DNA from: Porticoccaceae bacterium | GTDB lineage: Bacteria; Pseudomonadota; Gammaproteobacteria; Pseudomonadales; Porticoccaceae | NCBI GenBank assembly: GCA_029248755.1 | Contig: JAQWIR010000015.1 | Location: 1-64,000, forward strand | Direction: 5' to 3' | DNA length: 64,000 bases | Shown here: positions 26,514-31,295 of the stretch, piece after piece | Numbering within the stretch: the stretch's first letter is position 1 | Layout: every line of letters starts with the position of its first letter | Notes under the pieces: model-generated | The model's input: the letters and a program-made list of their open reading frames with translations, nothing else | Told to the model about the DNA's origin: nothing | Database searches by the model: none | Program-made: the position numbers and the translations under genes

Positions 26514-28244
26514 TTGATGCGCATCGTTAATCGAAGTTGCGATCTTGATAAGGCTACATTTTCTGCGGCAACAGCCCCGCTTCTTCAAAGAATATATCAG
26601 TCTAGAGGGTTAAATTCTGACGCCGACTTGAGTCTTAGTTTATCAAATCTGCCCAGTCCAGATTTAATGTTGGGACTTGATACTGCAGTAGAGCATTTAG
26701 TCGACGTTTTGAAGGCTAATCAACGAATAGTAATAGTCGGCGACTTTGACGCAGATGGTGCTACCAGTTCAGCTTTAATGGTGTTGGCGCTCACAGCCAT
26801 GGGTTTTGAATCAGTAGAATTTTTGGTACCCAATCGATTTGATTATGGTTATGGTTTAACGCCAGAAATCGTTGAGTTAGCACAGCAAAAAAAACCTCAC
26901 TTAATTATCACTGTAGATAACGGTATTTCCAGTATTGAAGGTGTCGATTTTGCCAATAACCTCGGTATTAAAGTTATTGTTACCGATCATCATTTACCCG
27001 GTTCGCAACTGCCCAATGCTGCAGCAATAATTAACCCTAATCAGCCAGATTGCCAATTCCCCTGTAAAAATCTTGCCGGTGTAGCGGTTGCCTTTTACTT
27101 ACTCAGTGCATTACGCGCTAAATTACGTCAGCTGAACTGGTTTGAAAAAAACTCCAGCCCCGAACCGAACATGGCACATTATTTGGATTTAGTCGCTCTG
27201 GGTACTGTGGCAGATGTTGTGCCCCTAGATCAGGTCAATAGAGCACTGGTGCATCAAGGATTATTAAGGATAAGAGCCGGTCATGGCCGTCCAGGCATTA
27301 ATGCATTATTAAAAATAGCGGGTAAAAATCCTGCCCAATTAGTCGCCTCTGATATGGGGTTTGCGGTGGCGCCAAGATTGAATGCGGCAGGGCGATTAGA
27401 CGATATTTCCTATGGTATTCAGTGTTTGCTGACAGATGATCCATCGATTGCGCTCAAGCGCGCTCAAGAATTGGAACAATTTAATCAGGATCGTAAAGCC
27501 ATTGAGCGAGAAATGCAGACAGAAGCCCTAAAGATTGTTGAGGATTTAGTGCTAGCTGATCAAGATGAGCTGCCAGCCGCTTTATGCCTTTATCAGGCCG
27601 ATTGGCATCAGGGTGTTGTCGGCTTACTAGCCTCTAGAATTAAAGAAAAATACCATCGGCCAGTAGCGGTTTTTGCAAAAGACGATAGCGGTATGCTGAA
27701 GGGTTCAGTTCGGTCTATATCGGGATTACATATTCGTGATGCACTAGATGCAGTGGCAACAAAAAATCCCGGGTTAATTACTAAGTTTGGTGGCCATGCA
27801 ATGGCAGCTGGATTAAGCCTTGAAGAATCATTGTTTGATCAATTTGAACAGGCATTGCAACAGCAAGTAGCAACCACTATAAATCCACGGGATTTAGAGG
27901 CTACATTGCAAACAGATGGACAGTTAAAAGAAGACCAATTTAGCATGCAAACAGCCTCCATACTGCGCGATGCGGGCCCTTGGGGGCAGTCATTTCCTGA
28001 ACCCTGTTTTCAGGGTGAATTTAATCTTATATCTCAGCGTATTGTTGGTGAAAATCATCTAAAAGTTACACTATCGTCAGATACTTCCAGTGCCACACCG
28101 ATGGATGGAATTTACTTCAATATTGATAGTGAGCAATGGCCAACGACTGCGACTAGGGTCCGCTGCGTCTATCGTTTAGATATTAATGAATTTCGCGGCA
28201 GGGAAAGTCTCCAGATGATCATTCAATATATGGAGACTGTATAG
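26514..28244 (+). CDS. recJ: Single-stranded-DNA-specific exonuclease RecJ
   Basis: DHH/DHHA1 motifs: VGDFDADGATSSAL, VTDHHLPG, GGHAMAAGLSL. Confidence 0.97.
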   Translation: MMRIVNRSCDLDKATFSAATAPLLQRIYQSRGLNSDADLSLSLSNLPSPDLMLGLDTAVEHLVDVLKANQRIVIVGDFDADGATSSALMVLALTAMGFESVEFLVPNRFDYGYGLTPEIVELAQQKKPHLIITVDNGISSIEGVDFANNLGIKVIVTDHHLPGSQLPNAAAIINPNQPDCQFPCKNLAGVAVAFYLLSALRAKLRQLNWFEKNSSPEPNMAHYLDLVALGTVADVVPLDQVNRALVHQGLLRIRAGHGRPGINALLKIAGKNPAQLVASDMGFAVAPRLNAAGRLDDISYGIQCLLTDDPSIALKRAQELEQFNQDRKAIEREMQTEALKIVEDLVLADQDELPAALCLYQADWHQGVVGLLASRIKEKYHRPVAVFAKDDSGMLKGSVRSISGLHIRDALDAVATKNPGLITKFGGHAMAAGLSLEESLFDQFEQALQQQVATTINPRDLEATLQTDGQLKEDQFSMQTASILRDAGPWGQSFPEPCFQGEFNLISQRIVGENHLKVTLSSDTSSATPMDGIYFNIDSEQWPTTATRVRCVYRLDINEFRGRESLQMIIQYMETV

Positions 28245-28295: not shown

Positions 28296-29753
28296 CTACT
28301 TGGTCGGAAGTTGAATATGGAAGGTTGTACCTTCTTGTTCATTACAAGTGACCGCAATTTGACCTTGATGCTGTTCGGTAATAATAAAATGACAGAAGGA
28401 CAGGTGCATAGCACTATCTATTCCCTCTTTGTCTATTCCCTCTCTAGCAGAATCACTTTGGTTAAAGGGTTCAAAAAGACTCTTCTGCTCTTCTAAACTA
28501 ATACCGGTCCCATTGTGTTGTATTCGTACCCATAGATCATCAAAGGCCATAGAAACATCAACGCTTATTTCAGGTTTATGATCTAACTCTTCAACATTAT
28601 CCAAGGCATAGCATGAACAGCGAAAAATACTTAATAGTGCCTGCTGTAGTTCAGTGATGTAGCAGGGGATCTCAGGTAAATCGTCGGCAAATGTAGTATT
28701 AATATTTACAGCACTAAAGCGTAAATTATCAGTAATCGACAAAACATCACTCGCTAATTCCAAACTATTTTTTATCACAGAAATAATGCTATTGTGAGCT
28801 TTGTCTCCACCACCACTGGCCGAGAAATTAAGTAAATTAGTGATAACCGAGCTTGCTTGTTGGCCGCGAATAATGGTCTCTTCTAACAGCTCATTTAGCC
28901 CTTCGGTATCTAAGTTTTCGTCCACTACACTTTGCCGAACTGTTTTTATATCTTTAATAATTGCTGTAAGAGGCGTATTAATATCCTGTGCCATAACCGC
29001 GGCCATCTCGCCCATGGCAGACATTTTATCCCGTTGGATTAGCATATTTTCATTTTTAGCGCGCTGAGTAACATCATCGAGTAGAATAACTACTCCTGTG
29101 TCTTTTTCACGCTGGAGTGGGTAAATAGTAATATCAAATTGATACTGGCCGCGTTGACTGTATTTTACAGTAATAATTTTATTGTCATCCTGAGCTTGCT
29201 TGACCTGATCTGGCGTCACTGTGATAGCGGGAAAGGTTTTCCAAAGGTCTGCACCTTGAGCATCTTTAAAGCTAACACCACTGACTATTTCAGCTCGATT
29301 ATTCCATTGGGTAATCTGATTTTTTTGATTAAGCCCAATAAGAATCATAGGCAGAGACTGAAGGATACTATTAATATAAGCCTCAGATTTCTGTAGCTGT
29401 CGAGTGGTTTTTTTGTGATCGGACACTTCAGTTTTAAGTAGTTTATTCGACTTATCAAGGGTTTTAGTACGCTCGATAACTCGCAGTTCTAACTGCGATC
29501 GAATATCCTCTAGTTCATTATTGTAACGACGTGCCTGACGGCGACTGAAGTACAGTCTCACAGTTAAAACAGCCAGAGCAATAATAAGAATATTGCCGAC
29601 AAAGTTAGCAACATATTGCCAGTTGGTAGAGCCATCGGCTTCTCGAAACAACCAAAAGATATCTGCATAGGCAGATTGGCAGAAAACAATTAATAGCAAA
29701 CTAAAAAGGATATGCTGTAACTTCAATGTATCCACTCCCAGTGGTTTATCCAA
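28296..29753 (-). CDS. PAS-containing, membrane-associated histidine-kinase-like protein with degenerate catalytic motifs
   Basis: TM segment, coiled coil, PAS domain, HisKA-like MGEMAAVMAQDINTPLTAI (His replaced by Gln), degenerate HATPase region. Confidence 0.8.
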   Translation of the reverse strand: MDKPLGVDTLKLQHILFSLLLIVFCQSAYADIFWLFREADGSTNWQYVANFVGNILIIALAVLTVRLYFSRRQARRYNNELEDIRSQLELRVIERTKTLDKSNKLLKTEVSDHKKTTRQLQKSEAYINSILQSLPMILIGLNQKNQITQWNNRAEIVSGVSFKDAQGADLWKTFPAITVTPDQVKQAQDDNKIITVKYSQRGQYQFDITIYPLQREKDTGVVILLDDVTQRAKNENMLIQRDKMSAMGEMAAVMAQDINTPLTAIIKDIKTVRQSVVDENLDTEGLNELLEETIIRGQQASSVITNLLNFSASGGGDKAHNSIISVIKNSLELASDVLSITDNLRFSAVNINTTFADDLPEIPCYITELQQALLSIFRCSCYALDNVEELDHKPEISVDVSMAFDDLWVRIQHNGTGISLEEQKSLFEPFNQSDSAREGIDKEGIDSAMHLSFCHFIITEQHQGQIAVTCNEQEGTTFHIQLPTK

Positions 29754-29822: not shown

Positions 29823-31295
29823 TTATGACGAACAGCTTACACTTATGGCACTTGCCCAGTCTGGTGGAAGCCCTTCATATTTTTCCCCATCGGGGTGAGC
29901 GATATAAGGATTACTTAATATACTAAGTAACAAATCAACTTCACTATAATCACCCGCCTCAGCAGCTTCAATTGCTGCTTGAGCCATATAATTTCGCAAC
30001 ACATAAAGCGGATTTATCTGCTTCATGGATTCGCATCTTTGTTTTTCAGTCAATTCTTGCGATGCTAGTCTCTGCAAATAATCTGCAGACCAGTCATCAA
30101 ACTGATCGCGATCAATAAAGTAGTCACGAACGGTTTGATTGTTTTTGGAAAAATCACATAGCTTGCGAAACAACAATGTGTAATCGACCTGATCCGTTGC
30201 CATCATATTGAGAAGTCGATTAATTAATAATTCATCTTTAGTTTGATAATTTAGCAAGCCAACTTTTGATGCCATAATTTGTCTGTAATTCCGCAAAAAC
30301 TCAGTTTCGTAGTGCTTAAGACATTCAGTTATCTCAGAAGTTTCTAATAGTGAGCTAAAACAGGTGGCCAAAGCATTAAGGTTCCACAGGCCAATAGAGG
30401 GTTGGTTTATAAATGAATAGCGGCCCTGATGGTCTGAATGGTTACAAATAAACTCTGGATTATAGGTATCTAAAAAACCGAAGGGACCATAGTCGATGGT
30501 ATCGCCGAGTATCGACATATTATCTGTATTCATAACACCATGACAAAAGCCTACCGATTGCCACTGTGCAATGGTTTTTGCTGTTTTAAGGACACAATTT
30601 TGTAACAGTAGATAATAACGTTTGGGGTCATCAGTCCAATCAGAAAAGTGACGTTCAATTAGATAATCAGCCAGTTCCTTAACGGCTTTTGGATTATTGT
30701 CATAGTGAAAATGCTCAAAATTGCCAAATCTAACATGACTGCGCGCTACTCTACATACAACGGCCGCCGGCTCTATTTGCTCGCGAACCGCCGTTGTTTT
30801 TCCGGTGATCAAGCTCAGTGCTCTGGTGGTGCTTATACCCAGTCCATGCATGGCCTCTGAGCAAAGATATTCACGAATACTTGAACGCAATACTGCGCGC
30901 CCATCGCCAAATCTCGAATAAGGCGTGGGCCCCGCACCTTTTAGCTGAAGATCCCAAAGTTCATTGTTGTCCCCAACCGCAATTTCACCCAAGGTTATGG
31001 CTCGACCATCCCCTAGTTGGCCTGCCCAAACGCCAAACTGATGGCCTGAATACACCACAGAAAACGAATCAATATCATCATGGTTTAAACCGCCACTCAA
31101 AAGTTGCAGGCATTCATCACTGTTTAACTCTTCAGCTGAAATACCCAGCATTTCAGCTAAATCGATATTAGTGCTTACCCATAATGCGTTATCGATGGGT
31201 TGTGGCGAAACTGCACTAAGAACTGTGCTATCGGAGACGTTGAAGTGGTTGTAAAAATGGCATTCAAGCCGTTGTTGAACGGATTTGTTGTTCAT
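29823..31295 (-). CDS. selO: SelO/YdiU family protein adenylyltransferase (pseudokinase fold)
   Basis: YSGHQFGVWAGQLGDGRAI, LKGAGPTPYSRFGDGRAVLRSSIREYLCSEAMH, HGVMNTDNMSILG. Confidence 0.95.
   Translation of the reverse strand: MNNKSVQQRLECHFYNHFNVSDSTVLSAVSPQPIDNALWVSTNIDLAEMLGISAEELNSDECLQLLSGGLNHDDIDSFSVVYSGHQFGVWAGQLGDGRAITLGEIAVGDNNELWDLQLKGAGPTPYSRFGDGRAVLRSSIREYLCSEAMHGLGISTTRALSLITGKTTAVREQIEPAAVVCRVARSHVRFGNFEHFHYDNNPKAVKELADYLIERHFSDWTDDPKRYYLLLQNCVLKTAKTIAQWQSVGFCHGVMNTDNMSILGDTIDYGPFGFLDTYNPEFICNHSDHQGRYSFINQPSIGLWNLNALATCFSSLLETSEITECLKHYETEFLRNYRQIMASKVGLLNYQTKDELLINRLLNMMATDQVDYTLLFRKLCDFSKNNQTVRDYFIDRDQFDDWSADYLQRLASQELTEKQRCESMKQINPLYVLRNYMAQAAIEAAEAGDYSEVDLLLSILSNPYIAHPDGEKYEGLPPDWASAISVSCSS

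Follow-up and report, generated by a model that had tools for sequence, protein, structure and literature searches.

A minus-strand open reading frame of the window (the whole stretch of 64,000 nucleotides that was analysed) encodes a histidine-kinase-like protein of 485 amino acids in which the phospho-acceptor and the ATP-binding boxes look abnormal, raising the question whether the gene is decaying or encodes a histidine pseudokinase that is maintained by selection. The frame (28296-29753) is listed from a TTG codon, and the true start may lie about ten codons inside it. In agreement with the first-pass annotation, all four motifs were found as read: MGEMAAVMAQDINTPLTAI (H-box), with a CAG codon for glutamine at the position of the phospho-acceptor histidine, LLSIFRCSCYALDNV (N-box), VRIQHNGTGI (G1) and GIDSAMHLSFCHFII (G2). 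A functional HisKA kinase needs the acceptor histidine, where this protein has Gln256, and Mg-ATP boxes with Asn, Asp and GxGLG, where it has Cys379, His413 and SAMHLSF. Four further sensor kinases that were read in this genome have normal boxes. As the degenerate boxes recur throughout the family described below while these four kinases are normal, the degeneracy goes beyond chance.

The protein is a genuine homologue of histidine kinases. An HMM comparison, proposed in the first-pass annotation, placed both HATPase_c (52.2 bits) and HisKA (28.5 bits) above the Pfam cut-off. The top NCBIfam models are sensor kinases, which score far under their own cut-offs, and phmmer matches crystal structures of histidine kinases, with ThkA and FixL chimeras as the nearest solved ones by sequence. 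An AlphaFold2 model built on 77 sequences (mean pLDDT 79.5, pTM 0.55) shows a helix (9-29), a short loop, a single helix running from the membrane into a coiled coil (45-132), a PAS domain, a DHp hairpin and a CA domain. Foldseek searches with this model returned the sensor kinases WalK, FixL chimeras, ThkA and HK853, and also the NifL-NifA complex (9qq6) and plant phytochromes, which have the histidine kinase fold and are not ordinary kinases. Hence, the DHp and CA folds are kept according to Pfam, AlphaFold2 and Foldseek. The earlier description of the transmembrane, coiled-coil and PAS regions as intact holds as well, given the AlphaFold2 fold and the PAS models, by which 76 of the 77 family members are recognised at E <= 0.01, the PAS domain of the 485-residue protein itself being under the Pfam cut-off. 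HATPase_c was detected in all 77 members scanned.

The N-terminal region has a feature of its own, a short motif past the signal peptide, DGxTNWQYxAN, that is a hallmark of the family and of its intact sister; T43, W45, Q46 and N50 are invariant in the family alignment. As A28-x-A30 resembles a signal-peptidase site, the mature protein may cross the membrane once, with about 15-20 residues bearing DGSTNWQYVAN on the outside. A consensus search with the N-terminal segment gave strong E-values only for the orthogroup and the intact sister. Fusion of the motif to other outputs was considered and rejected, the weaker matches (GGDEF and other histidine kinase proteins) lacking DGxTNWQ.

Features of the pseudokinase gene, in order along the protein after the whole gene (positions in the window).
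Feature	Positions	Strand	Basis or remark
Whole gene, histidine pseudokinase	28296..29753	-	485 aa; Pfam HisKA and HATPase_c
Hydrophobic N-terminal helix, signal-peptide-like, residues 9-30	29664..29729	-	A28-x-A30 almost invariant; AlphaFold2; putative cleavage
Family motif F-R-x-x-D-G-S-T-N-W-Q-Y-V-A-N, residues 31-50	29604..29663	-	Periplasmic face predicted
Transmembrane helix, residues ~50-70	29544..29606	-	Sequence; AlphaFold2 helix 45-132
Coiled-coil helix, residues 71-125	29379..29543	-	AlphaFold2
PAS domain, residues 126-231	29061..29378	-	AlphaFold2; PAS models
HisKA/DHp two-helix domain, residues 240-313	28815..29036	-	Pfam; AlphaFold2
Gln256 codon CAG, phospho-acceptor His position	28986..28988	-	Sequence; family alignment
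HATPase_c-like CA domain, residues 318-484	28302..28802	-	Pfam; AlphaFold2
Degenerate N-box, residues 368-385; Ser375 and Cys379 replace both Asn	28599..28652	-	Alignment
Degenerate G1 box, residues 412-418; His413 replaces adenine-binding Asp	28500..28520	-	Alignment
ATP-lid region, residues 431-446	28416..28463	-	Predicted disordered, pLDDT <50 (AlphaFold2)
Degenerate G2 box, residues 445-453, GIDSAMHLSF region	28395..28421	-	His450; Gly in active kinases, Arg in most of the family

Orthologs are present in nearly every genome of the same genus, mostly at full length and with 55-95% identity. A scan of the genome collection found them in HTCC2207, MOLA455, H231 and H921 of the SAR92 clade/Porticoccaceae, and further in Porticoccus, HTCC2148, Teredinibacter sp. 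ISS155, Marinobacterium species and several gammaproteobacterial MAGs. Wider sampling, in the order and the class, added members, five of them from genomes outside the order, and the family is thus spread over many marine gammaproteobacteria. Going by its nearest relatives, the host itself would be a SAR92-type member of the Porticoccaceae. No name or description of it was found in the open-access literature. In a tree built without the motif columns, all 81 distinct sequences of the family fall into a single clade with a support of 100. This clade has a long stem (~1.0 change per column) and is nested, like its intact sister, among active kinases with HEINNPL-type H-boxes. The sister pair comes from two genomes (G037, loci L040/L073, and G082, locus L072) and has both the HD-type H-box and the N-terminal motif in common with the family. 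The kinases L073 and L072 are 44-45% identical to the 485-residue protein and have the same DGSTNWQY module and PAS domain, but their H, N, G1, F and G2 boxes are all intact, and the sister therefore gives the ancestral state.

The 81 family members were aligned with 24 active relatives. The G1 aspartate, which binds adenine in GHKL ATPases, is present in 23 of 24 active kinases (Asn in the other) and in none of the family (His 80, Phe 1). The Mg-binding asparagine of the N-box, found in 24/24 active kinases, remains in 3/81 family members (His 64, Tyr 9, Ser 3, Cys 2); the other asparagine, the first of the box, is kept in 1/81 against 24/24 (Ser 73), and a G2 glycine in none against 24/24 (Arg 76, His 4, Pro 1). 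At the acceptor, histidine is invariant in the active set, while 57 of the 81 family members have it, the others carrying Gln (11), Tyr (4), Asn (4), Arg (2), Ser (2) or Phe (1). The residue following the acceptor, Asp257, is Asp in all 81 and Glu in most active kinases, and Pro261, five residues past the acceptor, is likewise found in 81/81. The most eroded member, L064 of genus g25, has Arg at the acceptor, FFG for HNG and a very long branch; its lineage possibly represents a second stage of change.

The emphasis that the first-pass annotation had placed on Gln256 did not survive this comparison. The acceptor switched between histidine and other residues at least 13 times, both in a quick tree and in a careful tree without three long rows; as parsimony counts are undirected, a few of these changes may be regains. 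Switches occur within strongly supported pairs (Q/H in L054/L056 and L026/L029, Y/H in L130/L134), and the protein's own subclade holds both Gln and His. A conserved functional role of the glutamine was rejected, the position varying among H, Q, Y, N, S, R and F. Since relatives at 86-87% identity have histidine, Gln256 is a local, incidental state, and it is the seemingly dead ATP pocket that is the family trait. Of the two features for which the annotation had proposed a conservation check, the loss of the N, G1 and G2 boxes is hence conserved across the clade and the glutamine is not; equally, close relatives do carry a normal histidine, but no clade member has a normal ATP site. Judged from tree and alignment, the loss of the ATP site is ancestral, having apparently happened once and become fixed, with the histidine lost repeatedly later.

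The gene is under purifying selection. Across the whole gene, dN/dS was 0.04-0.08 in 14 close ortholog pairs; as dS is saturated in several of them, the closest pairs (dS 0.13-0.5, dN/dS 0.05-0.08) weigh most. Within the DHp domain, dN/dS was ~0.02-0.04 where calculable, including pairs that differ at position 256. The histidine found at 86-87% identity is what speaks for recent decay or a sequencing or assembly error in a single MAG; an independent assembly at 94% identity, however, has the same boxes with a dN/dS of 0.065 between the two, and the boxes recur throughout the relatives in full-length frames. Decay or assembly error of the whole gene is thus refuted by independent genomes and a dN/dS of ~0.05, and the probability left to it is negligible. 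The view of the first-pass annotation, that the long intact frame speaks against decay and that a pseudokinase is being maintained, gains from the full-length relatives, the low dN/dS and the clade-wide, fixed loss of the ATP site. In the broad sense, a protein with the histidine kinase fold that is selected while lacking catalytic residues is a histidine pseudokinase, and this one fits. Relative to the PAS domain, divergence of DHp helix 1 is 0.99 in the family versus 0.49 in the active relatives, and that of helix 2, where the core varies most, 1.37 versus 0.81, a comparison that is only indicative, as the two sets differ in diversity. Constraint thus seems to have shifted from the phosphotransfer core to the membrane and PAS part. 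The former N, G1 and G2 boxes still rank with the best-conserved stretches of the family's core.

Probably, then, the protein belongs to an old, conserved family of histidine pseudokinases whose output passes by protein contact rather than by phosphate. The ATP site of an active PAS histidine kinase would have been lost a single time, ahead of the family's spread, and new conserved residues would have taken over, S-x3-H in the N-box, HNG in G1 and RLSF in G2. As the folds from the membrane anchor through coiled coil and PAS to DHp and CA are all retained, a stimulus at the membrane motif or the PAS domain could still reshape the expected dimer. As ATP would be unusable, no autophosphorylation is expected, which would make the phospho-acceptor histidine dispensable and explain its many losses, here to Gln. 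The DHp/CA surface would contact a separately encoded partner (kinase, response regulator or transcription activator), most likely in the manner of DivL, RetS or NifL, and the protein may scaffold, inhibit or read another signalling protein. The first-pass annotation had suggested a scaffold or inhibitor of another kinase; neither a conserved neighbour nor a close paralog in the genome was found that would point to one. Two observations count against parts of this reading. Histidine is still the commonest acceptor residue, so that many members could take phosphate from another protein, and the N-box asparagine is kept in three members; altered GHKL boxes do not always abolish nucleotide binding. 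An active but unorthodox kinase, or a protein with the phosphatase reaction only, would be in line with the recognition of HATPase_c in every member scanned and with the threonine that the 485-residue protein has at H+4, where HisKA kinases have their phosphatase position. H+4 is, however, Ile, Leu, Ala or Lys in 48/81 members, the histidine was lost repeatedly and four nucleotide-binding positions are replaced clade-wide, which leaves this explanation highly improbable. The histidine of the N-box and a Trp near G1 had suggested an HWE-type kinase. HWE kinases retain the N-box asparagine together with a histidine, and have WxE in G1; since the asparagine is lost in 78/81 members, and with no WxE pattern seen, this assignment was rejected.

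What the pocket may do instead is suggested by its replacements, which are not random: His413 (80/81), Arg450 (76/81), His379 (64/81) and Ser375 (73/81) suggest a new use. Binding of another ligand or of a protein by the former ATP pocket, with its conserved His, His and Arg, would make the family a new kind of two-input sensor and fits the conservation of the boxes, yet the 485-residue protein itself has Cys379 and His450, and the residues could merely stabilise an empty pocket or another lid fold; we regard this as possible but doubtful. Slightly better placed, though still tentative, is the wider proposal that a kinase catalytic domain was converted a single time into a module for docking or for binding something other than nucleotides. 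Combined with the new DGxTNWQYxAN motif at the membrane face, this would yield a widespread signalling protein of marine Gammaproteobacteria that works without phosphate. The hosts are marine bacteria with few two-component systems, and the intact sister provides a reference for a natural experiment in which a signalling enzyme became a non-enzyme.

In the open-access literature surveyed, accounts of bacterial histidine pseudokinases are rare, the best-known natural one being DivL. DivL of Caulobacter and other Alphaproteobacteria is a pseudo-histidine kinase that senses DivK~P without kinase activity (PMC4211667). It resembles the 485-residue protein in combining PAS and DHp/CA with a non-histidine acceptor and in that kinase activity is not expected. 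A DivL-like reversal of the signal, with DHp/CA as the input that reads a phosphorylated response regulator, would be one specific form of the contact-based output; the detection of DivK~P by the DHp/CA part of DivL (PMC4211667) and the good conservation of the DHp around position 256 are consistent with it. DivL, however, has a conserved tyrosine and lost only the histidine, keeping N, G1, F and G2 (PMC4211667), while the family shows the opposite, with lost boxes and a variable acceptor (here Gln256), and the variability of helix 2 does not suggest one conserved docked regulator, which makes reverse signalling unlikely. Compared with DivL, the order of events read from the tree is reversed, the ATP site being lost and replaced once and the acceptor then free to vary.

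A second specific form, in which the protein forms heterodimers with a particular active histidine kinase and inhibits or conditions it, has precedents in RetS, which controls GacS through mixed dimers (PMC12189002), and in the ChrS pseudokinase, which heterodimerises with HrrS in Corynebacterium glutamicum (PMC9491836). Both resemble the proposed mode in that a kinase-fold protein controls another kinase, although RetS is a hybrid kinase and the ChrS pseudokinase a laboratory frameshift. The DHp fold is kept and strongly selected, and at least four of the genomes sampled encode an active relative besides the pseudokinase. In the host genome, however, the nearest kinases match only with E 2e-5 and 24% identity, and no close active paralog was found in genomes of the same genus, so that mixing via a shared DHp interface is doubtful there; we consider heterodimers rather unlikely, if less so than reverse signalling. 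Pseudokinase and intact relative coexist in L039/L044 (G055), L041/L048 (G044), G080 and G097, that is, as paralogs in part of the order. NifL of Azotobacter, a histidine-kinase-like anti-activator whose GHKL domain binds ADP and which blocks NifA (PMC12540587), likewise joins PAS to a kinase-like core acting by protein contact, and its complex is a structural match to our model. The family differs in having lost the nucleotide residues and in having no fixed neighbour; NifL lies beside NifA, while recJ and selO flank the present gene and no such activator was found among the neighbours read. PAS kinases of the AtoS/ZraS/ThkA type provide the best general models and structures, but they are annotated as active, and the protein scores far below the curated equivalog cut-offs.

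Gene order was examined for a partner in ~80 loci with flanks of up to 6 kb, the neighbours being grouped into gene clusters. The pseudokinase gene lies between recJ (26514-28244, plus strand) and selO (29823-31295, minus strand), and a genome-wide search found no receiver domain on its contig, which bears out the earlier remark that no response regulator is adjacent. No recurrent response regulator was found among the neighbour clusters, nor any recurrent signalling partner in the loci read beside family members. Close relatives have their neighbours in common, but conservation does not reach beyond such groups, with selO/prfB/lysS/recJ in SAR92, the pdxA-ksgA side and ribosomal genes in Porticoccus and other genes elsewhere (assigned by eye or by homology to genes of this stretch), so that gene order yields no partner. 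Next downstream of the active relatives L040:3796-5211 and L042:3878-5230 lies a queD-like gene (6-carboxytetrahydropterin synthase type, by eye), which was not seen next to family pseudokinases in the loci read. By eye, one SAR92 subgroup (L034, L036, L105-L112, L147-L150) has a gene for a small secreted DUF411-like protein just upstream, another (L022, L027, L052, L064) a divergent ArsP-like permease gene, and the Marinobacterium-type loci L153, L154, L061 and L065 are flanked by what appear to be genes of hydrogenase, of its maturation or of cytochrome bd.
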